Assembly: GCA_018241505.1 (NCBI GenBank)
Contig: JAFEDS010000017.1
Span: 186,001-250,000, forward strand
Origin: Pseudomonadota bacterium
GTDB lineage: Bacteria > Pseudomonadota > Gammaproteobacteria > Steroidobacterales > Steroidobacteraceae
Direction of reading: 5' to 3'
DNA: 64,000 nt
Every line of letters begins with the position of its first letter. Position 1 is the first letter of the stretch. Position numbers and translations under genes: made by a program. Shown one piece after another: positions 1 through 37,041 of the stretch. The notes under the pieces are model-generated. The model was not told the DNA's origin. It did no database searches and saw only the letters and a program-made list of their open reading frames with translations.

Positions 1-235
1 CGGAAATGGCCGCGCGCAGCCGCGCCTCGTTGACGGGGTTGGCGATCGTGCTGCGCAGGGAATCACTGCTGCCATGGAAGGAACCAGCCCAATCGAACGA
101 CTGGCAGCGAACGGTGCTGGCCAAGGGCTGGTTGACGTCCGACGTCACGCGCAGCGTGGTACACGCACCCAGCCCCAGAGTGGCCGAAACCGCGACAGCG
201 CACGTTAATGTCTTCTGAATGGCCTGCTTGATCAT
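1..235 (-). CDS. DUF4136-type lipoprotein, 5' portion (runs off the window)
   Basis: Reading leftwards from an ATG at 235 the frame stays open to the window edge, giving the first 78 residues. It starts with a short basic N-terminus and a hydrophobic stretch ending in a lipobox (LGAC, Cys near residue 22), so the product should be an exported lipoprotein. Past the Cys come a beta-type segment (TLRVTSDV), a SFDWAG segment and NPVNEARLRAAI, which resemble the start of DUF4136 proteins; the role of that family is unknown. It is on the same strand as the operon ending at 337, about 100 bases downstream. Only the N-terminal third is visible, so the family call is from pattern recall. Confidence 0.7.
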   Translation of the reverse strand, partial: MIKQAIQKTLTCAVAVSATLGLGACTTLRVTSDVNQPLASTVRCQSFDWAGSFHGSSDSLRSTIANPVNEARLRAAIS

Positions 236-336
236 GGCGAAAAACCTCGGGCGATCACCTGGAACGCACCTGCAACACACACTGTTTAGACTACCACCCT
301 GATAGAAACGCGCAGCTTCAGGGGCGGTTTACCTAA

Positions 337-2199
337 TCAGTCGTTCCCCGCCGCCGCGCCGGGGGGCTTTCGATAGCCTTTCACAATCCGGTAGTGAAAA
401 TCGCGGATGGCGATGCCATCGCGCGAAAGGTAACCGGTCTGAATCGGCCCCACGCTGCTGGCATACGGCACGGTGAGCTCGTCCGCCAGGTCACGGGGAT
501 CCCAGGCCAGAAGCAACAAGGGACGCTCCCCGATCACGAGCGAAGACGCCCACCTTGCATACATTAGACCCTGGACACCGAACAGGTTCCGGCTGGAAGT
601 CTCCGCCACCGAGCGGGCGTGGTCCGGTGCGTAGAACGTCAACTGGCTCGCCAGCTCGTAGCGGTCCATGCCCACAATGACCGGCTCCAGGCCGGTTTCC
701 CGGCGCAGACCGCCGGCAATAGCCTGGACCTGGCGGCCCAGATCCCGCCAGCCTACCGGCACCAGCTCGAGGTGGTCGCTGTAGCCCACTCCCGGCAAAC
801 CCAACGCGAGATAGTGCAAGCCCGTTCCCAGCAGCAGCATCATGATCACCGCAGTGGGGGTCCAGGCGCTGTGCAGCCACGCCCGGAACCGGCTCACGCC
901 CGGCTTGCCGAATTCGACAATGGCAGCGGCGAGCGCCGGAACCGCGCCCAGCCAGAGCGCGCCCGTCCAATCGATTTTCACATCGTGGCGGATGCTGAAC
1001 ACCACAAACACCGACAAGGGCACCAGGACCGCGAGCTGCAGAAACAACCAGGCTCGCGACTGGGGGCGGCGGCTGAGGCGCGAAGCGAACGCCGTCACGA
1101 ATCCGGTCGGTGTCAGAAGAACCAGGGCCGATATCAGCAGCCGATGGAAGGAAAAGCGCGGTCGTTCCGCAAGCCGGCGGGACGTCTGGAAGGCGAACGA
1201 AGCCCATTCATGCTGCGCGTTCCAGATGATCACGGGCGAGAAAATCAACGAGGCAATCAGCAGGGCCGCATATGGCTGCCAACGCAGCAGCCAACGGCGT
1301 GACTGCGGGTCCAGCAGCACGAACAGAAACGCCACCGGCACCAGCATGCCGATGGTGTACTTCGAAATGAGGCCCAGGCCGATGCTGACTCCCGCAAACA
1401 ACCAGGCGCGCGGCTGCCCGCCCAGCAACGACCGTTCCAGAAAATAAAGTGTCGCCGACCAGGCGGCGGTCAACGGGGCATCCGGTGTCATCAGCAAGCC
1501 CGCCAGGAAGAAGAACGGCAGCACCTGCAACAACACCAACGCGACCCGGGCGCACTCATCCCCGAACAGGTTGCGCGTCAGCCGGTACGAAAAGAACATG
1601 GCCACGGCGGCACAACACACAGCACCGATGCGCACGCCGAATTCAGCCCCGCCGAACACATGCGTGCCCACCCAGATGAGCCACGCAACCATGGGCGGAT
1701 GATCCAGGTAGCCCAGGTCGAGATGTTGCGAGTAGTTCCAGTAATACGAGTCCTCCGGAAGCAGCTCCAACTGCCCGATGTACAGCAGCCGCAACAGGAA
1801 ACCAACCGCCACAAATCCAAAGACCACACCCGCGTCGCCGATTCTCCAGCTCGTAGTGGCCAGTGAGAACCGGTATCCCGGCAGCGCAACGGCCAGTGTG
1901 ACGAGAATGGCGAACACGATGCCGGCCTGTGGGGACCAGCCCCACACGTGGGTCAACAATCCGAGCACAGCGCCGCGCAGGAATATCGCGACCGCGCTCA
2001 CCACGAGCAAATGGACATGTAAACGCAGGTCGCCACCCCGCCCCGCCGCCACGGCGGGCGACCGTACTTTCAGGACGTACAGCAGCAGGAAGGCAACACC
2101 GCAACTCAACAGGTGCGCATCGACCAGCCGCAGCCCACCATGGAGGGCAAAGAGGAAAACAATCAGGTCGGCCAGCGCCGCCAGGAGGGTCGCGATCAT
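337..2199 (-). CDS. GT39/PMT-type integral membrane glycosyltransferase
   Basis: 620-residue polytopic membrane protein with more than ten hydrophobic segments. After two or three N-terminal membrane segments comes the acidic loop motif EDSYYW followed by DLGYLDHPPM, the signature of the ArnT/PMT_2 glycosyltransferase group, which takes a sugar from a polyprenyl-phosphate donor and transfers it on the periplasmic side. A soluble C-terminal part follows from roughly residue 470. The ATG overlaps the stop of the upstream MutS-like gene by 4 bases (ATGA), so it is the last gene of the six-gene operon. Donor and acceptor cannot be told from sequence; lipid A, an extracellular glycan or a protein are all possible. 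Confidence 0.85.
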   Translation of the reverse strand: MIATLLAALADLIVFLFALHGGLRLVDAHLLSCGVAFLLLYVLKVRSPAVAAGRGGDLRLHVHLLVVSAVAIFLRGAVLGLLTHVWGWSPQAGIVFAILVTLAVALPGYRFSLATTSWRIGDAGVVFGFVAVGFLLRLLYIGQLELLPEDSYYWNYSQHLDLGYLDHPPMVAWLIWVGTHVFGGAEFGVRIGAVCCAAVAMFFSYRLTRNLFGDECARVALVLLQVLPFFFLAGLLMTPDAPLTAAWSATLYFLERSLLGGQPRAWLFAGVSIGLGLISKYTIGMLVPVAFLFVLLDPQSRRWLLRWQPYAALLIASLIFSPVIIWNAQHEWASFAFQTSRRLAERPRFSFHRLLISALVLLTPTGFVTAFASRLSRRPQSRAWLFLQLAVLVPLSVFVVFSIRHDVKIDWTGALWLGAVPALAAAIVEFGKPGVSRFRAWLHSAWTPTAVIMMLLLGTGLHYLALGLPGVGYSDHLELVPVGWRDLGRQVQAIAGGLRRETGLEPVIVGMDRYELASQLTFYAPDHARSVAETSSRNLFGVQGLMYARWASSLVIGERPLLLLAWDPRDLADELTVPYASSVGPIQTGYLSRDGIAIRDFHYRIVKGYRKPPGAAAGND

Positions 2200-3974
2200 A
2201 CTTCCAACCCGATGGAGCGCATGAGCTCCATGGCATTGCTGCGCGTGACTACGCCGTCGTGCAGCTTGAAGTCAAACAACATGCGGCCATTCTGCAGCTC
2301 GTCCTGAAAATGCACATTCACCAGGGCACCCTCCGGCAATCCGGATATATCGGTCAATGCAAGATCGTGAGTGCTGATCAAGCCGATGGCGCCGCGCGCC
2401 GCGAAGGCACGCACAATGCCTTCCGCGCCGCTGCGCCGGTCCCAGGAATTCGTGCCCTGGAGCAACTCATCCAGCAGGAACAACAACGGGCGGCTGCCAC
2501 CTACCGCATCGAACAGTTGCCGCAACCGCGTAATTTCGGCGTAGAACCGCGAGCTGCCTTCATGCAGCGAGTCGTTTATCCGGATGCTGGCGCCAATCTG
2601 CAGCTCCGTGAGGCGCAAGGAGCGCGCCCGTACCGGTGCACCCGCCATTGCCAGCACCGTGTTGATGCCGACTGTACGCAGCAGTGTGCTCTTGCCGGAC
2701 ATGTTGGATCCGCTGACGAGTAGTATACGGGTCCTCCCCGTGATGTTGACGTTGTTGCGCACGACCCGCGCTGCGGGAATCAGCGGATGTGCCAGATCCT
2801 CAGCGGCGAAACCAGCGGGCCCGTCAATGAACTCCGGAAAGGGATCGGCGGGGTGCTCGTGCGTATAGGCTGCCAAGGACAGCAGCGCTTCGAGCTCGCC
2901 AATGGTTTCGGCCCAGTGGCGCACGACGCGGCCGTGCCTCCTGCGCCATCTCTCGGCCACCAGCGCGACATTGAGGGGATACATCGCAGGGATGGCAAAC
3001 AGCGTGATCGCCTGGTTGCGCCGCGACCCCGCGAAACTGACAATCGTGCTCAGGCTGGCGATGGTCTGCGAAGGTTTGCGGGCATGCGAGCTCAACCGCT
3101 CCAGCAATTTCCGCAAGGCCGGCGCCGCGAACGTTTCCCGCTCCACGCGCAAGAGCAGGGCCGCGAACAAGCGCAGGTCTTCGAAGGCCGTTTCGCTGCC
3201 GTTGAGCACTTCGTCCACGTTCTTGCGCAGAACGGACAGGACCACCGCCTCAACCACCAGGGTAATGAACAGCGGCGTGCCGACTCCCGTCACACTCCAG
3301 TAAACGGTGCCGAGAATCGCCACAACCGGAAGCAACACGCCCACCCAGACCATCCAGCGGGCAACCAGCCGATTCGGGGTTTCCGCCCACTGCAGCAGCG
3401 CGGCCGGGTGAATGCCGACATTCGAGTGCTCGCCGAGGACCGCCAGATCCTCCCGCAAATCGGTGCGATCCTTCAGATCATGAACGCAGGCATGCCGCTC
3501 GCGAATCTCACTGAGGGGAGCCGGTGCTTTCAGCCACTGAGCCAGCCGCTCTTCACCCATGCGCGTGCGAACCGTACACAGAAGCTCGAACAACCCTCCC
3601 TTGCCGAACAAATCCAGGTCGGATCCATACACGTGGTGCGGGTCGTCATAGCGCTCACCCCGCTGTCCGCTCCCCTGCCACCGGTCCTCAATCCTCGCCA
3701 ACCCCTTTCTATAAAAGTCTGCCGCCCGCTCGGCACGTGCTCTTGCTCTGCGAGCGCTCTGGTGGGCGATCACCAACACTGCGAATGCCGCAACACCCAG
3801 GAGTAACCAAAGCGCCTGGAAAGAATGCCTGCCAAGCGAGAACCAAGCGGCGACCACGATAATCACGGCCAACGTCAGGCGAGCGCTGCCAAAGCGGGAG
3901 AGCGTGGCGTCAAGGGTCTTTACGTCGGATTCGCGAGCAGTCAGACGCTCGCGGTAGTCGGTTGCGGGATCCAT
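2196..3974 (-). CDS. Membrane-anchored MutS-like ATPase
   Basis: 592 residues from the ATG at 3974, which lies 7 bases past the upstream stop; an alternative start at 4004 would overlap that gene. Two hydrophobic pairs (about residues 35-75 and 200-245) predict a membrane anchor. The C-terminal domain is a MutS-type ATPase: Walker A GSNMSGKST near residue 422-430, the SSRFYAEI segment, Walker B LLFLLDE near 500, and the STHDLALT switch. The mismatch-recognition N-terminal domains of true MutS are absent, so it is unlikely to do canonical mismatch repair. Membrane-linked MutS homologues exist in other bacteria without a settled function. It overlaps the GT39 gene by 4 bases. Confidence 0.85.
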   Translation of the reverse strand: MDPATDYRERLTARESDVKTLDATLSRFGSARLTLAVIIVVAAWFSLGRHSFQALWLLLGVAAFAVLVIAHQSARRARARAERAADFYRKGLARIEDRWQGSGQRGERYDDPHHVYGSDLDLFGKGGLFELLCTVRTRMGEERLAQWLKAPAPLSEIRERHACVHDLKDRTDLREDLAVLGEHSNVGIHPAALLQWAETPNRLVARWMVWVGVLLPVVAILGTVYWSVTGVGTPLFITLVVEAVVLSVLRKNVDEVLNGSETAFEDLRLFAALLLRVERETFAAPALRKLLERLSSHARKPSQTIASLSTIVSFAGSRRNQAITLFAIPAMYPLNVALVAERWRRRHGRVVRHWAETIGELEALLSLAAYTHEHPADPFPEFIDGPAGFAAEDLAHPLIPAARVVRNNVNITGRTRILLVSGSNMSGKSTLLRTVGINTVLAMAGAPVRARSLRLTELQIGASIRINDSLHEGSSRFYAEITRLRQLFDAVGGSRPLLFLLDELLQGTNSWDRRSGAEGIVRAFAARGAIGLISTHDLALTDISGLPEGALVNVHFQDELQNGRMLFDFKLHDGVVTRSNAMELMRSIGLEV

Positions 3975-3981
3975 GAGATGG

Positions 3982-6237
3982 TCAGCGCCTGATGGGCAAC
4001 TCAATATAACTATCGCTGTACCAACGGATCTTCACCGGTACCCGCCCGTCCTCCACCGACTCTTCGTTCACCGCGCCATCCGTGCCGTAGTTGATCTGCC
4101 TGTCCGGCCGCTTGTTCACACCCAGCACCACCACAACCCGGCTGCCGGCCTCGAGCTTGCGGCTGGTGAGCCGGTCGCTCTTGAACGTGAGCTGCTGACG
4201 CTCGCCCGCCCGTAACAAGCGCCGGATGACCCGGTCATGCACATAGCTCGCCCGGATCTCATACACCGGATCCTGGAGCTGCACATACTCCCCGCTGGGC
4301 AGCAGCTCGAAAATGCTGATGGTCAGATCGACGTCCTGCTTGTTGACCGTGAAGTCCAGCTTGCCGGAGAACAACCCGCTGAACTCCTGGCTGTGCTTCA
4401 ACGGCTCGCTCACAAACACCACGGCATTGCGCAACTGCAGCGCCCGGCTGACGATTCCGTTGGGCGGCGGCAAGACCGCATCGCTGCGATCCGCCAGATC
4501 CACCGTGTGCGGCACGAAAGTGGTGTCCGACATCTTCTTCGTAGTCAGGCGCCGCGTTTCACCGCCGGTCGCCGGCTTGGCATCCAGGTAGTACTTCAGG
4601 TTGCCCTTGCCCATCGCCTCGATGGACGGCGCATGCTGCCACTCGTTGCCGCCCATCACCTGGAAGTTGACCCGGTCGGCCAGCACCGCGGGCTTCTCGG
4701 CGCCCTTGAAGATGTGATCGAACCATTGATAACGCAACTCGCGCAGGTCAATGAGCGCCGCGGGGTCGAGCTGGTAGCCCCGCAGGTTCGCAGGCGCGCC
4801 ATGTTGCATGGCTCCATCGTCATAGGGTCCGATCAGCAGCGTATGATTCGCGTGCGGGTCGTGTTTGAGGTGCTCGGTGAAGTAGTAAAGCGTACCCACC
4901 TCGCCGTTCGCATAGTAGCCGGTGGTGGCCAGCACCGGGATCTTGATGTGACGGAACTGCTCCTTGTACGGGATCATCTTCTGCCAGAAGCGGTCGTAGC
5001 TGGGATGATCCAGCCAGTAGTGGAATATCGTGTTGTGCGCAACGGCACGATCGAGGTCACGATACGGCTTGCCGCTCGTGTACCAGTCCTCGTCGACCTG
5101 GCGCCACTTCTGCTCGTCGCTGCAGGTTTTCTCATCGAACCCTTCCAGGTTGGCCACGCAACCGGACCAGCGATAAGCGGCATTGCGCACGATGTTGCCC
5201 GTCATGGGGAAGTCGATGCCCGGCGCGTACGCCGAGTTGGTTGCAATGGCCTTGAGAGCCGCAGGCAGGTGCTTGGTCGTGGCGGCCCACTCGGTGAAGG
5301 CGCTGTAGTTGCCGCCGTACATGCCCACACGGCCATCGCTCCAGGGTTGCTTCGCAATCCAGTTGATGACGACGCGGGCATCGGCACCATCGAACTTGAA
5401 CGGCGTCACCGGTCCGCGGCTGCGCCGTTCACCGCGCGTGAAGGCCACGATTCCCACATAGCCACGGGCCGCACATTCCTTGGCGAAGGTGTGCGAATCA
5501 ACATAGATGGTGAATTCCAGCAGGCTAGGCAGCGGCTTCGTATCGTCCTTGGGCCGGACCACCACCGCTGAAATATTCGCGCCGTCCGGTGTCTGGATGA
5601 GCACATCCCAATCGGTGACGTAGCGCCGGCTGTCGTCCTCGTCTTCCAACGCGGCCACCAGCGGATGAAAGCTCCGATATGCATCGAACTGCAGGTACGT
5701 CCACACCAGATCGATGGCGTCGGCCTGCGGAATGCTGCCCTTCGGGCGCCACTGATCAAACGCGCGTTGCACGGCATCCCTGAATGGCGCCACGGATGCG
5801 TTCAGATAGTCGGACAACAGGAATGCGTCTGTGCCACTCAACGGTGAGACGATCGCGCGGTAGGCAACACCGTAGGATTTGGTGAACGGCCCCTTGTCCT
5901 CGGCCTCGCGGGAGCGGGCGTAGGCATAGATGTCATAAACAACCGACCTGCTCACGGGCTTGTGGGAGTCGGCGTTCTTGCGCCGCTCCCGTAGTTGCAT
6001 GCGGGTCTGCCAGGCCGCGGTGTAGTTGCCCGCCACGAGCTGCAAGCCCGAGACGTTGTGCAGGTACCGATCCTGATCGTTCTCCTGGTACACCGGCAGA
6101 ATCCGCTCGGCCAGGTCGCGCATGACTTTCGGAACAGTGGGGTCGTTCGCGGATGCGGGGGGCTTGAAGTCGAAGTTCTGCGCGAGCACCACCGGCGCTC
6201 CCAGCAGACACACCATGAGGAGAAGGAACGCCTTCAC
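3982..6237 (-). CDS. Exported CocE/S15-like protein with a lost catalytic triad
   Basis: 751 residues with a clear signal peptide (hydrophobic start ending VVLAQ), so periplasmic or secreted. The central alpha/beta-hydrolase domain and the C-terminal jelly-roll domain of the CocE/X-Pro dipeptidyl-peptidase family are recognisable (GRVGMYGG, ATTGYY, LLIGPY, GGNEWQHAP). The catalytic positions are changed. The nucleophile elbow reads GGNYSAF with Asn at residue 310 where the family has Ser. The GYYD Asp is Ala at 443. The GPxDH His is Asp at 474. Neighbouring Ser312 and His478 could in principle substitute, but a non-catalytic role is more likely. Its start overlaps the stop of the ABC gene (ATGA). 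Confidence 0.85.
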   Translation of the reverse strand: MKAFLLLMVCLLGAPVVLAQNFDFKPPASANDPTVPKVMRDLAERILPVYQENDQDRYLHNVSGLQLVAGNYTAAWQTRMQLRERRKNADSHKPVSRSVVYDIYAYARSREAEDKGPFTKSYGVAYRAIVSPLSGTDAFLLSDYLNASVAPFRDAVQRAFDQWRPKGSIPQADAIDLVWTYLQFDAYRSFHPLVAALEDEDDSRRYVTDWDVLIQTPDGANISAVVVRPKDDTKPLPSLLEFTIYVDSHTFAKECAARGYVGIVAFTRGERRSRGPVTPFKFDGADARVVINWIAKQPWSDGRVGMYGGNYSAFTEWAATTKHLPAALKAIATNSAYAPGIDFPMTGNIVRNAAYRWSGCVANLEGFDEKTCSDEQKWRQVDEDWYTSGKPYRDLDRAVAHNTIFHYWLDHPSYDRFWQKMIPYKEQFRHIKIPVLATTGYYANGEVGTLYYFTEHLKHDPHANHTLLIGPYDDGAMQHGAPANLRGYQLDPAALIDLRELRYQWFDHIFKGAEKPAVLADRVNFQVMGGNEWQHAPSIEAMGKGNLKYYLDAKPATGGETRRLTTKKMSDTTFVPHTVDLADRSDAVLPPPNGIVSRALQLRNAVVFVSEPLKHSQEFSGLFSGKLDFTVNKQDVDLTISIFELLPSGEYVQLQDPVYEIRASYVHDRVIRRLLRAGERQQLTFKSDRLTSRKLEAGSRVVVVLGVNKRPDRQINYGTDGAVNEESVEDGRVPVKIRWYSDSYIELPIRR

Positions 6238-8036
6238 TCGGCCTGCCCTCCGGGAATGGCACGGAGCGCCACCGGCGCGGGGACCAGATGCAGGACCCGA
6301 TTGAACATGGGATCGCGCGCCTGGGCCGCGCGGCCGATATGAATGATGCTCGTATGTTCGAGCTCATGGGAAAATATGTCGACCACTCGCTCCATGGCCT
6401 GATCGTCGAGCCCACCCAACATGTCATCTATCAGCAGCCAGGGCGGCGCCTGCATGACAATTCTCGCCAGGGCGAGACCCAGTTGCTCATCCTGACTCAA
6501 CTCACGGTCCCAGCGCCGCGTCTCGTTCAGAAGCGGTACCAGCCGTTCGAGCCCCAACCGCTGCAGCGAGCGTGTGAAGCCTTCGTCGGGGAACCGGTCC
6601 ACTTCCAGCGGATACGCCAATACCTCCTTGAGCGAGCCGCGCGGCAGGTACGGGGTTCCAGTCGGCAGATAAAGCATTTCTTCGTCTTTCGGTCGCGCGA
6701 TGCTGCCGCCGCCCCAGGGCCAGAGGCCCGCCAGGGCGCGGAACAGCAATGTTTTGCCGGTCCCCGGCGCGCCGACAATGAGCACTCGCTCGCCTGCCTT
6801 GACGACCACCCGGGTCTCTTTGAGCATGTCCGAACCGCTCGGGGAAACGATCTGCAGATCGTTTATTGTGATGGTCCCCGGCTCTCCCTCAACGTAGGTG
6901 ATGCGACTGTCGAGCTCGCTCATGTCCTCTGTTGTAGACAGAGCGTAGCGGAAGCTCGCGACTCTTTGCAGCGTCGCGCGCCAGTCCGCAATGATACTGA
7001 AATTGTCGACAAACCAGCGCAAGGAGGACTGCGCCTGCGTGAACGCCGCGGCCGCCTGCATCAGGCCGCCAAAGGAGATCTTGCCGGAAAAGTACAACGG
7101 CGCGGCCACCAGGATCGGTGCCACGATGGTAATCCAGCCAAAGCCGGCGGTGACCCAGGTTAGATTCGTGAGTCCTCGCACCAGGCGCCGCGTGGCCCGC
7201 AGGACATTGTCCAGGTGCATTTCAACCCGCCGGCGCTCGTCCTCCTCGCCCGCCGCCAGGGAGATTCCATCGAGATGCTCATTGATTCTCACCAGCGAGA
7301 AACGCAGATCCGCCTCGCGCGCGTAACGGTCGGAATTGCGCCAGATGAGGCTCTTGCCCACCCAGTAGCTCAGCAGCGAGCCGAGGGCCGCATACGTCAC
7401 GGCCGCCCACAACATGAAACCCGGAATCTCGTAGTCGCGGTCGTGAAAACGGACCGTGAATCCGTTCGACAGCGTCCACAACACACCCGCGAAAATACCG
7501 AACAGAATACCCGCCTGCAGCAGTCCGGTACCGAGGTCGGCCGACAGCTCGCACAACTTGCGGGCGTCCTCGTGCATGCGTTGATCGGGATTGACACCCA
7601 TCGGACCGCCGGCATTCGCCAGCCAGAACGCCCGGCGCGGCAACATCCAGTCGCGCAGCAGGTCGTGCACGATGCCCTGCCGCAACTTGAGCTTCAACAT
7701 CTCGACCAGCCAGCGCTGCGCCACGTTTAAAATCAATATCGCCGTGGCAATCACGAAGAACACGCCCAACTGGTACATGAAGTCGTGCAGATCGCGCCGC
7801 GACAGCGCGTCGTAGAAAGGCTTGTTCCAACTGTTGAGTTGAATCTGGCCGTAGGCGGTGGCAACAATCACCGCCACGACGGTCACGCCGAGCGCTACGA
7901 GCGTGCGCGCAACCGGCGAGCCGCGCAGGGCCCGGAACATCATGCCCATCTGTTGGCCGAGACCGGATGCCGCCTTCTCGGCCGCGGCCTTCTTGGCCGC
8001 AGCGTCCATCGCGCCTTTTTGTGGGCTGCTCGTCAC
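6234..8036 (-). CDS. ABC transporter, fused permease-ATPase of the BacA/YddA (ABC_membrane_2) type
   Basis: 600 residues starting at a GTG that overlaps the upstream stop (GTGA). The N-terminal half has about six membrane segments of the SbmA/BacA-like fold; the C-terminal third is an ATPase domain. Family members import peptides, vitamin B12 or bleomycin-like compounds in some bacteria. Walker A GAPGTGKT sits near residue 420. The signature is LSQDEQ instead of LSxGEQ, and Walker B reads LLIDD with Asp where the catalytic Glu is normal, so hydrolysis may be slowed. Related proteins with LSxDEQ exist as far as I recall, so this may be a subfamily trait. The substrate is unknown; the neighbours suggest a glycan or peptide fragment. 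Confidence 0.85.
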   Translation of the reverse strand: MTSSPQKGAMDAAAKKAAAEKAASGLGQQMGMMFRALRGSPVARTLVALGVTVVAVIVATAYGQIQLNSWNKPFYDALSRRDLHDFMYQLGVFFVIATAILILNVAQRWLVEMLKLKLRQGIVHDLLRDWMLPRRAFWLANAGGPMGVNPDQRMHEDARKLCELSADLGTGLLQAGILFGIFAGVLWTLSNGFTVRFHDRDYEIPGFMLWAAVTYAALGSLLSYWVGKSLIWRNSDRYAREADLRFSLVRINEHLDGISLAAGEEDERRRVEMHLDNVLRATRRLVRGLTNLTWVTAGFGWITIVAPILVAAPLYFSGKISFGGLMQAAAAFTQAQSSLRWFVDNFSIIADWRATLQRVASFRYALSTTEDMSELDSRITYVEGEPGTITINDLQIVSPSGSDMLKETRVVVKAGERVLIVGAPGTGKTLLFRALAGLWPWGGGSIARPKDEEMLYLPTGTPYLPRGSLKEVLAYPLEVDRFPDEGFTRSLQRLGLERLVPLLNETRRWDRELSQDEQLGLALARIVMQAPPWLLIDDMLGGLDDQAMERVVDIFSHELEHTSIIHIGRAAQARDPMFNRVLHLVPAPVALRAIPGGQAE

Positions 8037-9352
8037 CCTACAACCGCGCGCCGGGCGGCCAGGCAGGAGATGAATGCCGCGTAGCTCCAGGCCAGATGCC
8101 GAGCGGAGGTCTGTGCGCCCGTGCGCTGGTCGAACTGTTCGGACAACTCCCCATTCTCGGGCGTGTATTGACGGACGGTCTCCAGGAACGCATCCCCTCT
8201 TCTGACCCAGTCTGTGCCTTGCGGGCTGTGAGCCGCGGCCAGAAAGCAGAACTCCGCCGCTCCCAGCGTCGAGAAATAATACGCGCCGCCGGAGAAGTAG
8301 ACATCGCCTTTATAACGCCCCATGGCCGGCCCCGCATGCGCGGGGCGATTGCGGTTGATGGGATAGAGCGAGTCGAACAGCTCTTCCAGCCGCTGCAGCG
8401 TGGCCTGCATTTGCGGATCCCGAACAGTATGCGTAGACGCGCCTCCCAACGCATGGATCGCCGCCAGGATGACCGCAATATCCAGCTCCTTCACCGACCT
8501 TATGCCGGATGCCAGGATGCGCGATCGATAGTGCCGCTCGTCCGGCAGCCAGAAGCCATCGAGGCTGCGGTGAATGGCCTCCGCCTCGGCGCGATAGGTC
8601 CCCGCCAGCTCGAGATCACCGCCGTCCGCGAGCCAGTCAGCCCCTTCGCGCAGTGCTGCGGCGGAAACACACAGCGTGTAGTAGTGCTGGCCGCTCTCCT
8701 CCTCCCAGATGTCATACGAGGGCTCGCGCCAGTGAGCAAACGTAAATGCAAGGTCCGAGCGGACCAACCTCGATACCAGCGAGCGCAGCTCGGCATCGAA
8801 TCCATGCACGCGGCTCCATCTCAACACGGAAAGTGCCCGCAGGGGCGCGCCGTCATGTTGGGGCCGCGTCCAGCTCGAAATATCGAGCGTGCCATCCGGA
8901 TTGACGCGGGTCTCGGCGACGATCGAGTCGCCATGCACGGCACCCAGCTCGTCATCCTTGCGCAGGAACTTGATGAAGTCGGCAATGACATTCTCGCGCC
9001 ACGCGGTCGTCGCGATCACCTTGCGCCCATCGAGCGCCTGCAGGTCGAGACTGAAACGCACAAAGTCACCGAAATGAGCGAGCGCCTCGCTGCCCAGATC
9101 GCCGGCCTCGAACAACAGGCGGATGGCATCCATCACCACCGCGGAATCCCGGAACCAGTGAAAGAAATAGTCCGGCTCCGGGTTCCAGTCAGCCAGCACC
9201 GGCGAGGCAATGATGGCGCCTTTCACCGGGTGAATGGTGTGGCCGAACCCCGGCCGCGCTTTGACCAGCCCCACGGGCGACACGGCCGCCAGCATTGCGG
9301 CGGCCGAGCGCCGGTATTGTTGCTCGAGCCACTGTTCGAACGCGCGTTTCAT
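8033..9352 (-). CDS. Glycoside hydrolase family 15 (glucoamylase-like)
   Basis: 439 residues from an ATG that overlaps the stop of the upstream gene (ATGA), which decides the start over longer frames. The (alpha/alpha)6-barrel enzyme normally releases glucose from alpha-glucan or short alpha-glucoside ends by inversion. The segment YDIWEEESG carries the general acid Glu (about residue 217) and matches the YDLWEE motif of fungal glucoamylase. Near the C-terminus, ENGELSEQFD followed by AWSYAAF supplies the catalytic base. No signal peptide is visible, so it should act in the cytoplasm on imported oligosaccharides. It sits between the GH144-like gene and the ABC transporter gene. Confidence 0.88.
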   Translation of the reverse strand: MKRAFEQWLEQQYRRSAAAMLAAVSPVGLVKARPGFGHTIHPVKGAIIASPVLADWNPEPDYFFHWFRDSAVVMDAIRLLFEAGDLGSEALAHFGDFVRFSLDLQALDGRKVIATTAWRENVIADFIKFLRKDDELGAVHGDSIVAETRVNPDGTLDISSWTRPQHDGAPLRALSVLRWSRVHGFDAELRSLVSRLVRSDLAFTFAHWREPSYDIWEEESGQHYYTLCVSAAALREGADWLADGGDLELAGTYRAEAEAIHRSLDGFWLPDERHYRSRILASGIRSVKELDIAVILAAIHALGGASTHTVRDPQMQATLQRLEELFDSLYPINRNRPAHAGPAMGRYKGDVYFSGGAYYFSTLGAAEFCFLAAAHSPQGTDWVRRGDAFLETVRQYTPENGELSEQFDQRTGAQTSARHLAWSYAAFISCLAARRAVVG

Positions 9353-10605
9353 CCCAGGTGCGGGCTCGAGAAACTCAGCCGCCGCAGCCCGGTCTGCACT
9401 TCGGGAATGCTCATGAACAGCTTCCACAGCAGGCCGGTACGGTAATTTTCCATCATGACGACAATGGGTCCCTGGTCGATGGCAATGTACGTATCGGCAT
9501 ACCAGTTGCGCTGCTCGCAGAAGGCATCCGCAAAACCGTAGCGGCCCCAAAGCTTCTCACCGTGCTCGCTCAGGAAGTGACGCAGGGTACTCATGACTTC
9601 AAGGGGAGCATACGGAAGACTGGAAAGTGCTGCCGTCGGCGAGATGGTGCCGTTGTCATTGTCAGGTGCATGCGCCGAGTACCCGTCCGGGTCGTCGCTT
9701 GCCGTCAGACCCCAACAGTCGGGGCCATAGCCTTTGAAGTTGTAGGGGTTGGCCAGGCAATGCGCCCGGTTGATGGCGACATGCCGCCGGTTGAGCTCCC
9801 AATAGTCGGCGTATTTGTCTTTGAGTCCGCGCGGGTCGAGTCCGCAGAAGGAATAGTGCGCAAAGAAGAGCGGCCCCCCATACGCCATGCCGAGTGGCAA
9901 CTCGATGTCGTAGTAGCGCTTGCCGTTCAGAAATCCGTTACCCGAGGCGTAGCCGCGCTGGTAGACGGTTGGACTGATGGGGTATCGAGGTGCGCCCGCG
10001 GCCAACACGTAGGTGATCAGGCATTCATTCCAACCGCGGATCTCGTGATCCATGGCCCAGCCGTTGTTGGGGCTCCAATGCCAGTACAGGACGCGGCGCC
10101 CTCCCTGCGTGTACCAGTCCCATTCGACCTCTTCCCACAACCAGGTGGCTCGCCCGCGCAGGGACTGTTCAGCTCGAGTGTCCCCATTGAAATACTGCCG
10201 CGCACACAGAAGGCCCATGCACAGGAACGCCGTCTCTACCAGGTCGCCACCATCGTCTTTCCGATAGAACGGAATCGTGGCAGCGGTTCGCCCGTTGATG
10301 AAGTGTGCGTAGGCGCCGTGATAGCAGGTTGCGGCAGTGAGCAAATCGAGCATTCGGTTGATGCGCTCAACCGCGGCATCGCGCGTGACCCAACCACGCT
10401 CGGCCGCCACGACAATAGCCATGATGCCGAAGCCGGACCCACCGATGGCGGACTTGTCGTCCGCTGCATCTGCGCGCGTAGTACACCTGTCAGGCGCGAG
10501 GCCGCTGACCGGATGCCCCCCATCCCAGAAAAACTTGAAGGTCTGGCGTTGCACGACCTCGAGCAATTGCTCATCGGGCAGTTTCGCCAGCGCTGCGGCT
10601 TCCAT
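9349..10605 (-). CDS. Glucoamylase-like (PF10091, GH144-type) putative beta-1,2-glucanase
   Basis: 418 residues from the ATG at 10605, chosen for its AAGGAG ribosome site 5 bases upstream; longer frames run into the divergent GH3 promoter region. The protein has the PF10091 barrel (QTFKFFWDGGHP, GGSGFGIMAIV, GWNECLITYVLAAG, YGLTASDDPDGY-like and NDNGTISPTAALSSLPYAP segments). Characterised relatives in GH144 are endo-beta-1,2-glucanases. No signal peptide is seen, unlike many family members, suggesting cytoplasmic action. First gene of the operon reading down to 337, and divergent from a GH3 beta-glucosidase, a pairing expected for breakdown of beta-1,2-glucan. Substrate is inferred, not shown. 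Confidence 0.82.
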   Translation of the reverse strand: MEAAALAKLPDEQLLEVVQRQTFKFFWDGGHPVSGLAPDRCTTRADAADDKSAIGGSGFGIMAIVVAAERGWVTRDAAVERINRMLDLLTAATCYHGAYAHFINGRTAATIPFYRKDDGGDLVETAFLCMGLLCARQYFNGDTRAEQSLRGRATWLWEEVEWDWYTQGGRRVLYWHWSPNNGWAMDHEIRGWNECLITYVLAAGAPRYPISPTVYQRGYASGNGFLNGKRYYDIELPLGMAYGGPLFFAHYSFCGLDPRGLKDKYADYWELNRRHVAINRAHCLANPYNFKGYGPDCWGLTASDDPDGYSAHAPDNDNGTISPTAALSSLPYAPLEVMSTLRHFLSEHGEKLWGRYGFADAFCEQRNWYADTYIAIDQGPIVVMMENYRTGLLWKLFMSIPEVQTGLRRLSFSSPHLG

Positions 10606-10610
10606 TAGCT

Positions 10611-10616
10611 CTCCTT
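10611..10616 (-). promoter_or_regulatory. Strong Shine-Dalgarno site deciding the GH144-like start
   Basis: Minus-strand AAGGAG lies 5 bases before the ATG at 10605 and excludes longer in-frame starts. The 90 bases between this ATG and the GH3 start at 10696 must hold both promoters of the divergent pair. Confidence 0.6.
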
Positions 10617-10695
10617 TACGGACCCGCACGAGCGGATTCGACTCGCGATTTTGCCCTGTTTCCGCGACCATATGTTTTTTTGCGGACGGGTTTCG

Positions 10696-12840
10696 ATGAA
10701 TCGGGCCGAGAAACTGCTCTCTCAGATGACCCTGGCGGAGAAGCTGGGGCAGCTCACCATGACGGCCGCGGGATATGCCGTCACGGGTCCCGTCATTGCG
10801 GGTGACTCGACCGAGGCCATCAAAAGCGGCGCCATTGGCAATCTTCTCAACCTCGTGGGGCCCGGTCCGGTACGGGAGATGCAGCAGCTCGCCATTGAGC
10901 ATTCGCGGTTGAAAATTCCGCTGCTGATTGGCCTCGACATCATTCACGGGCACCGCACGTTGTTTCCCATTCCGCTGGGCGAGGCCGCGCTGTTTGATCC
11001 GCAAACCTGGGAGGCGACAGCGCGGGAAGCAGCGAGAGAAGGCGCGGCTGACGGTCTTGCCCTGACTTTTTCACCCATGCTGGACGTTTCCCGCGACATC
11101 CGCTGGGGACGCACCGCCGAAGGGTCTGGCGAGGACACCTGGGTTGCGGTGCAAATGGCACGCGCCAAGGTCAAGGGATACGAAGGCACTGACCTGTCAG
11201 CGCCGGAATCGCTGGCTGCGTGTGCGAAGCACTATTGCGCGTATGCGCCGGTACTTGCCGGGCGTGAGTACGCGCAGGTGGATATCTCGGAGCGCACGCT
11301 GATGGAGGTCCATGTGCCTCCTTTTGATGCGGCGGTGGCGGCGGGTGTGGCTACGATCATGCCTGCGTTTACGGATCTGGATGGTGTTCCCATGACGGCC
11401 AACAAGAAGCTGTTGCGCCATCATCTGCGCGACCAACTCGGGTTCCAGGGCGTCATTGTCAGCGATTACAACGCCATTGCCGAGCTGTTGCATCACCGCA
11501 TTGCCGCAGACCTGCCCCAGGCGGCAGCTCTGGCCCTCAATGCCAGTGTCGACATTGACATGATGTCCGATGCTTACCGCAACGGGTTGCCCGTTGCGCT
11601 CGAACGCGGGCTCGTCACGATGGCCCAGATCGACGAGTCTGTATTGCGTGTGTTGCGCTTGAAGGAACGCCTGGGGTTGTTTGATGACCCATACCGGCGC
11701 GGATCAAGGCAGGAAGCGCCTGCTGTCCTGACGCACCGGCGCGAGCTGTGCCGATCCGTCGGCGCCCGCTCGATCGTCATGTTGAAGAACGACCGTGAAA
11801 CACTGCCCCTGCGCGGCCGGCTGCGGCGCTTGTGTGTGATCGGTCCGCTCGGGGATGCTGCTGTTGAAATGGGGGGCTGCTGGGGGGCCGCGGGCAGGCC
11901 TGAAGACCGGATCAGTGTACTGGCCGGGTTGCGTGCTGCGTTGTCCGGAACTGACATCGTGCACGCCGATGGCGTTGCATTTGCCGGTGGCGATGCAACC
12001 GGGATCGCTGCCGCTGTCGATCTGTGCAACGACGCCGATGCTGTCGTGTTGTGCATCGGCGAAAAAGCCGACATGAGTGGCGAGGCGGCGAGCCGGGCAT
12101 TTCCCGAAGTGCCGCCCTTGCAACGCGCCCTCGCGGAAGCCGTATTCGAGCGGGCTCACGCCCGGGGTCTGCGGGTCGTTGTCGTGTTGTTTTCGGGACG
12201 CCCGCTGGTCATTCCCTGGCTTGCCGACGCCGCCGATGCAATCCTGGCGGCGTGGTTCCTGGGTAACGAGGCCGGCAATGCCATTGCGGATGTTGTGTCC
12301 GGCAAGATATCGCCGAGCGGCCGCACCCCCATGAGCTGGCCGCGCGCCATCGGCCAGATTCCCGTGTTCTACGGCGAGCGTCCCACCGGCCGGCCATACA
12401 ACCCGAAGGACCACTTCACCAGCCGGTACATGGACGTGAGCAACGAGCCGCTCTATCCATTTGGTCACGGCTTGACCTACGGGCACTTCGTGTTATCCAA
12501 CCTCGTTGTTGCATCCGACGAGCTGGCGGAAAAGGACACGCTCGATGTGCGCGTGGACGTCAGCAACGAGGGCGCTGCCGCCGCCGAGGAAACCGTGTTT
12601 CTGTTTATTCACGACAAGGTGGCGACGGTGACCCGTCCGGTGCTCGAGCTGAAAGGGGTTGGCAAAGTCACCTTGCGGCCGGGAGAAACCAGGACCGTGC
12701 GCCTGAGCGTGCCGGGCACCGAGTTGCGGTTCCTGGGGCTCGACCTCACCCCGGTATTCGAACCTGGGCAAATAGAGGTGCTGGTGGGGCCTTGCGCGGA
12801 TCGGACGCAACTGCTGCTGCGGACCATTCAGCTCGTCTAG
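10696..12840 (+). CDS. GH3 beta-glucosidase, probably cytoplasmic
   Basis: 714 residues starting MNRAEKLLSQMTLAEKLGQL, the usual GH3 opening; a frame opening further upstream adds only non-conserved residues. Layout: barrel domain, alpha/beta sandwich with the acid/base region GEKADMSGEAASR, then a C-terminal fibronectin-III-like domain from about residue 600. The nucleophile Asp is in IVSDYNA (residue 257). It removes terminal glucose from beta-glucosides. No signal peptide, unlike periplasmic BglX. Divergent from the GH144-like gene, so the two probably degrade the same beta-glucan, with this enzyme cleaving the released sophoro-oligosaccharides (inference). Confidence 0.92.
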   Translation: MNRAEKLLSQMTLAEKLGQLTMTAAGYAVTGPVIAGDSTEAIKSGAIGNLLNLVGPGPVREMQQLAIEHSRLKIPLLIGLDIIHGHRTLFPIPLGEAALFDPQTWEATAREAAREGAADGLALTFSPMLDVSRDIRWGRTAEGSGEDTWVAVQMARAKVKGYEGTDLSAPESLAACAKHYCAYAPVLAGREYAQVDISERTLMEVHVPPFDAAVAAGVATIMPAFTDLDGVPMTANKKLLRHHLRDQLGFQGVIVSDYNAIAELLHHRIAADLPQAAALALNASVDIDMMSDAYRNGLPVALERGLVTMAQIDESVLRVLRLKERLGLFDDPYRRGSRQEAPAVLTHRRELCRSVGARSIVMLKNDRETLPLRGRLRRLCVIGPLGDAAVEMGGCWGAAGRPEDRISVLAGLRAALSGTDIVHADGVAFAGGDATGIAAAVDLCNDADAVVLCIGEKADMSGEAASRAFPEVPPLQRALAEAVFERAHARGLRVVVVLFSGRPLVIPWLADAADAILAAWFLGNEAGNAIADVVSGKISPSGRTPMSWPRAIGQIPVFYGERPTGRPYNPKDHFTSRYMDVSNEPLYPFGHGLTYGHFVLSNLVVASDELAEKDTLDVRVDVSNEGAAAAEETVFLFIHDKVATVTRPVLELKGVGKVTLRPGETRTVRLSVPGTELRFLGLDLTPVFEPGQIEVLVGPCADRTQLLLRTIQLV

Positions 12841-12910
12841 CGCCGGCGGAGCGCCCGTCGCCGGCCCGCGGCCGGCCCGCGCGGATTACGGCTTAACATA
12901 TTGCACCCCT

Positions 12911-12933
12911 AGATGACCACCAGGCGGTCATCT
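12911..12933. terminator. Hairpin between convergent GH3 and slyX genes
   Basis: Perfect 8-bp inverted repeat (agatgacc / ggtcatct) with a 7-base loop. The bases at 12917-12924 can instead pair with 12938-12945 (ccaccagg / cctggtgg), giving a mutually exclusive second hairpin. There is no U-tract on either strand, so it may be a bidirectional rho-dependent or structural end. The rest of 12841-12954 is GC-rich with repeated GCCGGC and holds no gene I can see. Confidence 0.4.
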
Positions 12934-12954
12934 GCGCCCTGGTGGCGCGGGCGA

Positions 12955-13161
12955 TCAGTAATGCGGCGGCCGCTCTTCTTCCGGAGTCCGCGGGGTGTAC
13001 GGAGTCTGTGCGGCAGAGATGCGTTGCGCGAGCACGTCGAGTTGGGCACGCAACGCGGCTATCTCCTGCTGCTGCCGATAGACGACATCGCTGAGCTCGA
13101 CGTTGGCGCTCTCGAGGAACGCAATCTTGGTTTCAATCCGCTCGACTTCATCGCTGGTCAT
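12955..13161 (-). CDS. slyX: SlyX family protein
   Basis: 68 residues from the ATG at 13161; an ATG at 13209 would add 16 residues. The protein is one coiled coil (VERIETKIAFLES... LSDVVYRQQQEIAALRAQ) and ends EERPPHY, the typical SlyX tail. Function of SlyX is not established; it is often found near slyD, which here is 30 kb away. It is convergent to the GH3 gene. Neither candidate start has a clear ribosome site. Confidence 0.85.
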   Translation of the reverse strand: MTSDEVERIETKIAFLESANVELSDVVYRQQQEIAALRAQLDVLAQRISAAQTPYTPRTPEEERPPHY

Positions 13162-13311
13162 ATCGACAGTGTAACCAATCCGCAGCCGCGGCGCGCGCAA
13201 TTCAAACATGGCAACCCAACATACAGCGTCGCTCGCCGGCGACGTGTTTACCTGCTGCGCCCGGGCGACTAGAGTGCCGCGCAGACGTCAGGATCCGCTA
13301 CGGGGAAAACA

Positions 13312-13887
13312 GTGAGCACGGGCAACAGCAAAACCTGGCCGCATCGGCATCGCTTTACCACGGAAGAATACAACTGGATGGCCGAAATCGGCCTGCTGAA
13401 CGGGGAACCGGCCGTCGAGCTGATTGAGGGCGAGATCATTCACATGGCGCCCATGGGAACTCAACATGGCAACGTGGTGGAAAGGCTGCAGTTGGCCCTG
13501 GCGAGCGCGTTGGCCGGCCGCGCCGTCATCAACATTCAACGCGTGTTCCGCTTGAGCAACATCACCGAGGCTCAGCCCGACGTCATTGTCCTGAAGCCGG
13601 GACGCGACTACCACTCCACGAAATTCCCCACCGGCAGCGACACCCTGCTGGTGGTGGAAGTCAGCGACACCAGCTTCTCCTACGATCACGACATCAAGGT
13701 GCCGTTGTATGCGGCCCATGATGTTCCGGAGGTGTGGATCGTCGACCTCGAGAGCCGCTGCCTGCGCTTGTTCCGCGGGCTGGTGGACGGCAAATACACG
13801 GATGTACAGGTCGTCGAGGACCCGGCGCTCACCCCGCTTGCCGGCTTTCCCGACACCCACATCAACCTGTCCGGCCTGCTGATCTAA
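13312..13887 (+). CDS. Uma2 family (DUF820) putative restriction-like endonuclease
   Basis: 191 residues from a GTG start preceded by a weak cgggga site. The Uma2 fold belongs to the PD-(D/E)XK nuclease superfamily: HRFTTEEYNWMAEIG, ELIEGEIIHMAPMG, then EAQPDVIVL and LLVVEVSDTS with the acidic residues, and YAAHDVPEVWIVDL. Biological role is unknown; such genes are abundant in cyanobacteria and scattered elsewhere as singletons. The 3' end overlaps the convergent hydrolase gene by 4 bases. No partner gene is visible. Confidence 0.88.
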   Translation: MSTGNSKTWPHRHRFTTEEYNWMAEIGLLNGEPAVELIEGEIIHMAPMGTQHGNVVERLQLALASALAGRAVINIQRVFRLSNITEAQPDVIVLKPGRDYHSTKFPTGSDTLLVVEVSDTSFSYDHDIKVPLYAAHDVPEVWIVDLESRCLRLFRGLVDGKYTDVQVVEDPALTPLAGFPDTHINLSGLLI

Positions 13888-15203
13888 TTCGCGTGCGCTG
13901 CCGCCTTTGCCTGCAGCAATTCGAGACCGGCCGCGTGATTTCGCTGGAAGCCCTTCCAGACCGAAATGCCATTCGCGCCCGGACTGACAGCGGCGTAGGC
14001 AGAGGTGCTCTCGGCCGGCCACTGGCCGGCATCCGAGTCGGTCCCGCTGACATTCAGATAGCTGTCACGACTGACATCGTCGCGGACATACCGGTCCAGG
14101 AAGGCCGTGATGAAATGGACGTTGATGGCATTGATCCGGTCCTTGCGCCACACCGGGTCCGCGAACCAATCCTGGTCCCACAGACGAGTGCGCATCGCAT
14201 CGGGTACCGGATTCAAGCCGATTGAGTGTCCCCCCTCCTTGAAGGTCAAAAGGTATCGATCGGCATTCGTCGCGCCTTCAAAGATTGCGTGCGCGCCTGT
14301 TGCGTAGTCGACCGTGCGATCCCTGTTTCCCGAGATGAGCAACAGTGGCGCATGGATCCCGCGAAGGCCCTCAGCTCCCCACGCGGCCAGGTTTCCTCCA
14401 CCGGCAGGTGCAAGCGCAACCACCGCACGCACACCTTCAACGGTAACAGCATCGTGTTTGGAACCACCACGTGCATACTGGTTGAGAAACGCGCCCGGCA
14501 CCATCGTCATCAAGGGCGATGTTGGATCGAGCGTCGCGCCGGCGGCAGTCAATACCCCGTAGCCGCCCATTGAGTAACCAACAAGGGCGACTCGCGAGGG
14601 ATCAATGAGCTTCTCACGCGCAAGAATATCTTTGAGAGATCGAGTCACATACGCCACGTCGAGCGGACGCCGCGCAAGGAGTTGAGCAAACCGGGACTTG
14701 TCGGTGATGGGCGGGTCGTCGTGTCGAATCGCCGCAACCACGTAGCCCTTCGAAGCGAGGTTCTCGGTCAGCCATGTCATGGCAGCCGGCGAATTGCTGT
14801 AGCCGTGCGAAACAACTACCAACGGGTGAGCCTTTCCGGCCGCAGGCGCATCCCGGACGGCAATTCCCGGGACGGTAAAGCTCACGGGGGGAGCAGGCGG
14901 CTCGGAAGGAAGGCTCGCAGTATAGGACTCGCGTTGGGCACCATCAGGAACGGCGGCGGGGTACCAGAGGTCAACGGTCAACGCGCGATCGCTCTTCTGG
15001 AATGAGCGGTTCGCCGGGTTGAACGACAGCACGTCTTCCTGCTTGCGCTGGACCAGGGCGAGCGTTCGGACTCCTACAGCCGAAGCGCCCAGGTGCGCGA
15101 GCTCCGGCGCATCGACTCCGAACTGGCTGGGGGGCCCGGCCATGCACGGTCCCAACAGCGCAAAGGCCGGAACCAGGGCCGTTAACGTCGCCTTCCACCT
15201 CAT
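13884..15203 (-). CDS. Exported alpha/beta hydrolase (dienelactone/PAF-acetylhydrolase-like)
   Basis: 439 residues with a signal peptide (hydrophobic start, cleavage near CMAGPP). Alpha/beta-hydrolase core: HPLVVVSHGYSNS (oxyanion region), nucleophile elbow GYSMGG after RVALV, acidic residue in LLISGNRDRTVDY, and His in EGGHSIG. The triad is complete, so it should be an active esterase or lipase-type enzyme in the periplasm. The substrate is not predictable. It diverges from the HDOD gene with 71 bases between starts. Confidence 0.85.
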   Translation of the reverse strand: MRWKATLTALVPAFALLGPCMAGPPSQFGVDAPELAHLGASAVGVRTLALVQRKQEDVLSFNPANRSFQKSDRALTVDLWYPAAVPDGAQRESYTASLPSEPPAPPVSFTVPGIAVRDAPAAGKAHPLVVVSHGYSNSPAAMTWLTENLASKGYVVAAIRHDDPPITDKSRFAQLLARRPLDVAYVTRSLKDILAREKLIDPSRVALVGYSMGGYGVLTAAGATLDPTSPLMTMVPGAFLNQYARGGSKHDAVTVEGVRAVVALAPAGGGNLAAWGAEGLRGIHAPLLLISGNRDRTVDYATGAHAIFEGATNADRYLLTFKEGGHSIGLNPVPDAMRTRLWDQDWFADPVWRKDRINAINVHFITAFLDRYVRDDVSRDSYLNVSGTDSDAGQWPAESTSAYAAVSPGANGISVWKGFQRNHAAGLELLQAKAAAHAN

Positions 15204-15274
15204 GTTCGCCCGGATTCTAGCCGTTCTGTGAACAAAAGTGCGCCACGGCGGCCGCTTAGCGGTAAGTTACGGAT

Positions 15275-29037: not shown

Positions 29038-29234
29038 TTCGCGCAGTATAGCCGCCCGCTATTGCAACACCGGCCGGCGTTCCGGCACATTACCCCTTGT
29101 ATGTCAAGCACTTCCGACTCTGCGAAGCAACACTTGCTTACAGTGTCTGAAGTACGAATCTCGGGAAACTTCACCCCTGGTTGCACAGTCAACGTCGCAG
29201 GCTAAGGTTTGGGGAGTCGCAAGCTGGTGGATCA

Positions 29235-33600: not shown

Positions 33601-33712
33601 GAGCCAGGTCCTCACTCTGTTTACGACGCCCGTCATCTATCTGGCGTTCGATCGCCTCGCCAAGCGGTTCCGGCCCAGCGCCGAAGGCGAGCTGGCGGAC
33701 GATCCGGCGTGA
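30617..33712 (+). CDS. RND efflux permease, first of a tandem pair (MdtB-like)
   Basis: 1031 residues, normal for the HAE1/RND family. Twelve membrane segments with two large periplasmic loops. The TM4 proton-relay acids are present in [16 protein letters not shown], and the [17 protein letters not shown] and [17 protein letters not shown] segments mark TM10-TM12. Uses the proton gradient to expel drugs or other amphiphiles. The start overlaps the adaptor stop (ATGA). With the following gene it probably forms a mixed trimer, as MdtB and MdtC do (established for E. coli, inferred here). Confidence 0.94.
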
Positions 33713-36700: not shown

Positions 36701-37041
36701 GCATCGTCAAGAAAAACGCCATCATGATGGTCGACTTCGCGCTCGACGCCGAGCGCACCTTGTCGCTGACACCGCGCGAAGCGATTGCACGCGCCTGTTC
36801 CTTGCGCTTCCGGCCGATCATGATGACAACTCTCGCAGCCATCGCCGGCGCCCTGCCGCTAGCCGTTGCCTACGGTGACGGCACCGAGATGCGCCGGCCG
36901 TTGGGAGTATCCATTGTCGGTGGACTCGTGGTCAGCCAGTTGCTGACGTTGTACACCACGCCTGTTGTTTACCTGTATGTCCATCGCTGGGGACGCAAGA
37001 ATCGATACAAGCAGACCCGGCTGCTGGAAGCGAGCCTATGA
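33709..37041 (+). CDS. RND efflux permease, second of the pair (MdtC-like), with an extra periplasmic insert
   Basis: 1110 residues from a GTG overlapping the previous stop (GTGA). The RND core is intact ([34 protein letters not shown]). It is about 70 residues longer than the family norm. An Ala/Thr/Ser/Asn-rich insert (about residues 788-857, bases 36073-36282) interrupts the second periplasmic loop after YVSTSGG, before the conserved VIPFTAF strand. A Gly run ([14 protein letters not shown]) sits near residues 603-617. The insert is predicted to lie in the docking/porter region. Confidence 0.93.

Follow-up and report, generated by a model that had tools for sequence, protein, structure and literature searches.

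Near the start of a window of 64,000 nucleotides from a member of the Steroidobacteraceae (contig JAFEDS010000017.1, positions 186,001 to 250,000 of the forward strand; "the window" denotes this whole stretch throughout), six minus-strand genes encode in turn a GH144-type β-1,2-glucanase, a GH15 α-glucoside hydrolase, an SbmA/BacA/YddA-like protein of ATP-binding cassette (ABC) architecture in which a transmembrane domain (TMD) and a nucleotide-binding domain (NBD) are fused (ABC2), a pseudo-esterase of the CocE/NonD fold, a membrane MutS-like ATPase, and a GT39-type glycosyltransferase (Table 1). The original prediction, made from this DNA alone, described a six-gene operon joined by four 4-base overlaps and one 7-base gap, and the open reading frames (ORFs) agree with it: read from the DNA, the overlaps are ATGA, GTGA, GTGA and ATGA, 4 bases each, and 7 bases separate the CocE stop from the MutS ATG. 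The families it had named are likewise backed by Pfam matches. Its list of six genes was correct as far as it went but omitted a divergent GH3 β-glucosidase gene, which lies 90 bases away across a putative control region.

Comparison with other genomes indicates that the recurring unit is GH3 divergent from GH144-GH15-ABC-CocE. The gene adjacencies go beyond chance, GH144-GH15 and ABC-CocE being found again in other genomes. A search of genome contigs for CocE returned 17 loci, seven of which (L003-L008 and L011) encode the N-terminal domain described below; L numbers denote loci and G numbers genomes, L003 being G005, and L004 and L035 the same stretch of G258. The order of the unit is present at L004, at L008 (Solimonas terrae KIS83-12) and at L003, where a contig end cuts GH3; at L007 the run extends from a truncated GH144 through CocE, with GH3 and the remainder of GH144 on another contig of the same genome (L129). 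Three same-genus genomes (L021-L023) have GH3 divergent from ABC-GH144-GH15-CocE, and G142 has GH3 divergent from GH144-GH15-ABC without this CocE. GH144 and GH15 are adjacent in all 13 genomes in which that side is covered, to which G280 adds a fragment of GH15 located at the end of a contig, and in every one of the 14 genomes with coverage on its side GH3 stands divergently beside the cluster (on two contigs for G254). The ABC gene lies directly upstream of CocE in 12 of 15 genomes (the L006 copy is partial); in the remaining three the two genes share one run. An in-frame, internally deleted remnant of a second ABC gene, ABC1, lies between GH3 and GH144 at L004 (4740-5480; also L035, G258), and because G258 keeps this remnant ahead of GH144, GH3 divergent from ABC1-GH144-GH15-ABC2-CocE may fairly be taken as the ancestral order.

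Table 1. Features of the locus and related genes of the host genome.
Feature	Position	Strand	Product or size	Matches
GH144-type β-1,2-glucanase	9349..10605	-	418 aa	PF10091 E 1e-81
GH15 α-glucoside hydrolase	8033..9352	-	439 aa	PF00723 E 1e-51
SbmA/BacA/YddA-like fused TMD-NBD protein (ABC2)	6234..8036	-	600 aa, GTG start	PF06472+PF05992+PF00005
CocE/NonD-fold pseudo-esterase, putatively secreted	3982..6237	-	751 aa, GTG start	PF02129+PF08530
Membrane MutS-like ATPase	2196..3974	-		PF00488+PF05192
PMT_2/GT39-type membrane glycosyltransferase	337..2199	-		PF13231 E 2e-43
BglX-like GH3 β-glucosidase	10696..12840	+		PF00933+PF01915+PF14310; PRK15098 BglX 642 bits, cut-off 666
Intergenic stretch between GH144 and GH3, putative control region	10606..10695	.	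90 bases
Four MdoG-family genes, host genome outside window	L085:3726-5327, L086:4004-5611, L087:3527-5119, L084:530-2116

The suggestion that the six genes act together stands for GH144, GH15, ABC and CocE, whose linkage recurs, and fails for MutS and largely for GT39: the search for the same gene order in other genomes, which the original prediction had proposed as its check, found these two unlinked in relatives, an outcome that it had named as refuting. A six-gene functional unit is rejected to the same extent by L003 and other loci. In L003, the nearest relative (69-88% protein identity over seven genes), a convergent minus-strand gene (8170-8814) overlaps the end of CocE, and the MutS-GT39 pair starts ∼3.9 kb beyond, cut off from CocE by opposite-strand genes. 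Different genes lie downstream of CocE in L008, and neither MutS nor GT39 is found within the 3.7-10 kb of downstream sequence covered in L004, L008, and L021-L023. Among the loci examined MutS is seen only in the window and in L003 (L020 is the same stretch), whereas GT39 homologues (46-52% identity) lie zero or one gene from GH3 in L041, L072, and L078. MutS and GT39 are mostly mere neighbours of the unit, GT39 being loosely linked to it. Downstream of GT39, the window (2-280, minus strand) and L003 (15923-16495) carry lipoprotein-like genes that resemble each other, and MutS-GT39-lipoprotein therefore seems to be a conserved block of its own. In L041 (427-4629) and L072 (11744-16279) the GT39 homologue, beside GH3, adjoins genes that by eye resemble those of response regulators and sensor kinases.

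Most surprisingly, two closely linked proteins of the locus have both lost catalytic residues. The CocE of the window has an extra N-terminal domain of ∼180 aa and a signal-like N-terminus, judged by eye and by hydropathy. Its description as a dead fold is borne out: the triad Ser is replaced by N310, the Asp by N444 (or A443, if the preceding alignment column is the true one), and the His by D474. Across 15 CocE sequences the Ser position is occupied by Gly in 11 and by a different residue in each of the other four (N, T, D and, in L004 alone, the original Ser), the His is kept in none, and the Asp in none, or in one (L011) if the preceding column is used. The shorter relatives L009 and L024 retain Ser and His. 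Apparent ABC-CocE fusions in L021-L023 were discarded, their frames of 1066-1158 aa extending upstream through GH15 in another frame. In L011 (8192-12196) ABC and CocE occupy a single frame of 1335 aa with the signal-like stretch of CocE internal; this fusion is not used as evidence because it comes from a lone metagenome contig, in which a sequencing slip is possible.

The best solved relative of ABC2 is 6tqe, the top structure match, which we take to be Rv1819c, and ABC2 has the fusion of a PF06472 TMD to an ABC NBD that characterises active transporters of the YddA/BclA/Rv1819c group. The TMD is also related to SbmA/BacA (PF05992, E 4e-19; 7p34, E 2e-8). The Walker A motif GxxGxGK(S/T) is intact in the window copy and deviates in seven of the 15 CocE-linked copies (L007, L008, L011, L021-L023, L036), Lys being replaced by Arg in L022 and L023. 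The catalytic Glu that follows the Walker B Asp is lost from every CocE-linked copy (14 full, one partial), giving way to Asp in eight and to Gly in seven. In the window it is Asp, which may permit some ATP hydrolysis. Among eight other full-length ABC copies, Glu is retained in five (L041, L072, L073, L076, L077) and absent from L040, L043, and L044. The H-loop His is missing from ABC2 as well, but its loss was dropped as proof of a dead ATPase because the Glu-bearing paralogue also lacks it. Decay of the NBD is unsupported too: mean identity among CocE-linked copies is 64% for the NBD and 74% for the TMD, against 50% and 69% among other copies, and the NBD is thus conserved more than elsewhere. 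In an alignment by eye with the glutamate ladder of SbmA, E193 and E276 are matched, E287 is matched across a gap, E378 corresponds to Asp, and E203 and E269 are absent; a fully proton-driven transporter of the SbmA type (SLiPT) is rejected, as an NBD is present and the ladder is incomplete. A single origin of the CocE-linked copies is not borne out by the tree of ABC copies, in which two label changes are needed and L044, on a long branch, groups weakly with L011. A role in anti-phage defence was also rejected, since the one PADLOC match, which pairs the NBD of P0004 with mad3, is weak at 20 bits.

The GH144 protein matches PF10091, a family named 'Glycoamylase', with 274 bits (cut-off 27), and phmmer pairs it with 4gl3 ('putative glucoamylase', 561 bits) and with 5gzh ('Endo-beta-1,2-glucanase', 482 bits, residues 9-417). 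It is a predicted endo-β-1,2-glucanase on the strength of the family profile and of its likeness to a characterised enzyme, and the aligned motifs are conserved across the eight orthologues aligned, one of them partial. Both catalytic Glu motifs of GH15 (WEE and SEQ) are present in all eight aligned orthologues, and its nearest solved structures are glucoamylases. By eye, none of GH144, GH15, and GH3 has an evident signal peptide, and the substrate must therefore reach the cytoplasm. Hydropathy scores are 0.63 for GH144, 1.21 for GH3, and 1.83 for GH15, compared with 1.74-2.83 for 11 CocE sequences; the hydrophobic stretch of GH15 we take to be part of the domain, similar stretches occurring in GH15 orthologues.

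The distribution of the gene set was followed in two samples, one of the order (296 genomes) and one of the class (369 genomes). A profile of the CocE N-terminal domain (A4, built from 11 rows) matches eight of the order genomes and one of the class genomes, the window's own; counting G005, G034, and G684-G688, CocE with this domain is present in 15 genomes. GH144 (P0006) gives 43 matches at 1e-20 in the order sample, ten of which (the one in G314 partial, at a contig end) reach the identity of at least 64% that defines close GH144. Close GH144 accompanies CocE in eight of eight carriers and is present in two of the 288 other order genomes (G142 and G314), with a Fisher p of 3e-14 that overstates the association because kinship is ignored. 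Overall, 13 of the 15 CocE genomes have close GH144. It lies on a different contig from ABC-CocE in G132, G254, G280, G295, and G687, and in the first four of these close GH144 stands within GH3 divergent from ABC1-GH144-GH15 (contig ends cut G254 and G280). In same-genus genomes picked for lacking CocE, GH144 has no match in G001 and G002 and a match of 39% in G003. Within the class sample, any GH144 at 1e-40 is found in nine genomes and close GH144 only in the window's own, and a GH15 like P0005 is found at 1e-40 in a single genome. Two such ABC genes (E ≤ 1e-60) are present in eight of the 15 CocE genomes and one copy only in six (G005, G034, G035, G258, G684, and G688, Solimonas terrae among them). 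The gene set is real, recurring, and of restricted distribution.

Outside the window, the host genome has an OpgG-like gene adjoining an OpgH-like gene, plus three more MdoG proteins; the OpgH-like gene is adjacent to L084. For L086 the match to 8x18 ('Glucans biosynthesis protein D') scores 709 bits, and the XccOpgD residue numbers given in PMC11228985 coincide with the numbering of the 8x18 chain. Equivalents of W76, D343, and R477 of XccOpgD are carried by L085 and L086; these residues mark synthases of α-1,6-cyclised β-1,2-glucohexadecaose, an osmoregulated periplasmic glucan of 16 glucoses with one α-1,6 bond (PMC11228985). The host is thus predicted to make α-1,6-cyclised glucan through two OpgD homologues. 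Among the 15 CocE genomes, eight have marked copies, six the Y-D-H form, and G688 none; OpgD type was discarded as a predictor of the gene set, no association having been found. Elsewhere in the window, on the plus strand at 29181-38435, lies what by eye is an RND efflux-like run of a periplasmic adaptor-like gene, two RND-like genes for products of ∼1000 aa, and an outer-membrane-factor-like gene.

The reading that best accommodates these observations is that the unit imports β-1,2-glucan and degrades it to glucose in the cytoplasm, a proposal that as a whole has an even chance of being correct. ABC2, as an SbmA/YddA-like membrane protein, would carry the glucan inward; CocE, linked to it by gene order, would bind or present the glucan in the periplasm; GH144 would cleave the β-1,2 bonds, GH3 would finish the oligomers, and GH15 would remove an α-glucosyl link. 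We infer the substrate, the energy source, and the direction of transport. Breakdown of β-1,2-glucan by the cluster is probable, import by ABC2 is slightly favoured, and whether CocE is the partner of ABC2 is evenly poised. Because α-1,6-cyclised β-1,2-glucan contains both types of bond, it would give GH144, GH3, and GH15 a use together; as the main substrate it is doubtful, since GH15 is glucoamylase-like and the OpgD marks are not tied to the cluster. A more radical version, in which intact and perhaps cyclic β-1,2-glucan is taken up for the cytoplasmic hydrolases by two pseudo-enzymes, a non-hydrolysing protein of ABC architecture and a pseudo-esterase replacing a solute-binding protein, is unlikely. 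The original prediction of glycan import and processing survives as the best reading, while nothing favours the glycopeptide or cobalamin substrates that it had also entertained.

Several observations weigh against import and cytoplasmic breakdown of such a glucan. GH15 retains Trp161, which we take to be the glucoamylase-type Trp position, and its spacing from Glu405 to Ala417, measured on sequence rather than structure, is 12 residues, where the corresponding spacing is 13 in TtGA, 23 in KfIG, and 22 in AgGD. On account of these two glucoamylase-like features GH15 seems not to be α-1,6-specific, and they lean against strict specificity of that kind; in the α-1,6-specific GH15 enzymes glucodextranase and isomaltose glucohydrolase, a Trp582/Trp350-type residue replaces the Trp390-type residue (PMC12446779). 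The signal-peptide call was made by eye, and the hydropathy score of GH15 exceeds that of the lowest CocE (L004). ABC2 combines the loss of the catalytic Glu with an incomplete SbmA ladder. Inspection by eye of the ORFs of positions 1-16000 revealed neither a TonB receptor gene nor one for a solute-binding protein, and in Pfam no solute-binding family is matched by any of the seven proteins of the cluster, the flanking ORFs being judged by eye. G685, without GH144, and G686, with a match of only 36%, still carry ABC-CocE. Marked OpgD is found in seven of eight typed genomes without CocE (drawn from 12 with an MdoG match, a single copy being examined in five of the eight) and hence does not track the cluster, and G142 has GH3 divergent from GH144-GH15-ABC yet no MdoG gene.

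Among the alternatives, ABC2 could pair with the Glu-bearing paralogue ABC1, the two forming a heterodimer in which ABC2 is the degenerate subunit and which serves as an ordinary ATP-driven importer. This is unlikely, although the second copy has the Glu in six of the eight genomes with two ABC genes (G000 L076, G031 L077, G254 L078, G295 L041, G685 L072, and G687 L073), the ABC1 remnant precedes GH144 in G258, and degenerate sites are frequent in heterodimeric ABC exporters (PMC7756269). Against it, the six genomes with a single copy include Solimonas terrae, where Walker A is altered too; both copies lack Glu in G132 and G280; and the Glu-bearing copy of the window's genome lies on its own ∼160 kb beyond the window. 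The hydrolases might instead recycle a mixed or ordinary α-glucan store, GH15 being a plain glucoamylase grouped with GH144 for metabolic convenience, which agrees with the glucoamylase-like positions of GH15 discussed above. The unbroken GH144-GH15 adjacency makes this rather improbable, as does the single class genome with a GH15 of this kind, from which it appears not to be a common housekeeping gene in the class.

The ABC-CocE pair might also serve another solute, such as a peptide, cobalamin, or a sulfated glycan, with the hydrolases as hitch-hikers. Transporters of the SbmA/BacA/Rv1819c type are promiscuous (PMC13316013), GH144 is not found beside ABC-CocE in L005, L006, L011, and L036-L039, and a protein of ∼1000 aa of F5/8 type C precedes the pair both in L005 and in L075 of the L006 genome, L005 having PhyH and TPR-sulfotransferase genes nearby as well (L005:1927-8137; L075:618-3587); nevertheless, CocE co-occurs with close GH144 even where the two are unlinked, and this explanation is improbable. 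Comparably improbable is a role of ABC2-CocE as a sensor or regulator of periplasmic glucan, as in transporter-like sensors, rather than as a transporter. Such a role would suit two proteins that have lost catalysis yet are kept, with an NBD better conserved than in other copies, but no regulator gene recurs next to ABC-CocE in the loci inspected, and genomes with a single ABC gene would leave cytoplasmic hydrolases with no importer in the cluster. Joint action of all six genes, MutS and GT39 included, on a glycan or glycopeptide is hardly credible: the single tight run in the window speaks for it, as does the proximity of GT39 homologues to GH3 in three genomes besides the window's, whereas opposite-strand genes intervene between CocE and MutS-GT39 in L003 and the pair is not seen in the other examined loci with downstream sequence.

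Import of β-1,2-glucan for cytoplasmic breakdown, if correct, has wider implications. Osmoregulated periplasmic glucans bear on symbiosis and infection, new enzymes acting on such glucans continue to come to light, and the cluster would offer a ready enzyme set for α-1,6-cyclised β-1,2-glucan. The pairing of a degenerate ABC protein with a dead esterase raises the question of whether import by an ABC architecture is possible without ATP hydrolysis. SbmA has been proposed to derive from a YddA-like ancestor (PMC13316013), and this origin would require an ABC-architecture importer that functions without ATP hydrolysis.

The cluster is a variant of β-1,2-glucan catabolic loci, distinguished by its unusual transporter. 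Literature searches found the gene set named in no title or abstract opening, and breakdown of α-1,6-cyclised glucan is not described in the available portions of PMC11842490 and PMC11228985. The sgl clusters with GH144 or GH162 (PMC11842490) are alike in combining GH144, a β-glucosidase, and an ABC-type protein; they have a sophorooligosaccharide-binding ABC subunit, in place of which the present cluster has an SbmA/YddA-like fused protein, a pseudo-esterase, and GH15. The full-length transporters YddA, BclA, and Rv1819c (PMC13316013, PMC12003926) share with ABC2 the TMD-NBD fusion and PF06472, and YddA, like ABC2, has an incomplete glutamate ladder (PMC13316013), but the CocE-linked copies differ in the uniform lack of the catalytic Glu and in being tied to a putative periplasmic partner and to glycoside hydrolases. 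Proton-driven SbmA/BacA (SLiPT) has a related TMD and, like ABC2, no sign of ATP hydrolysis, whereas ABC2 keeps an NBD and is missing the equivalents of E203 and E269. With cocaine esterase and other CocE/NonD hydrolases the pseudo-esterase shares the fold and the C-terminal domain, differing in the lost triad and the added N-terminal domain. Finally, the three marker residues of XccOpgD are shared by two host proteins and the two bond types of its product fit the enzyme set, but the excerpts of PMC11228985 concern synthesis and give no route of breakdown.

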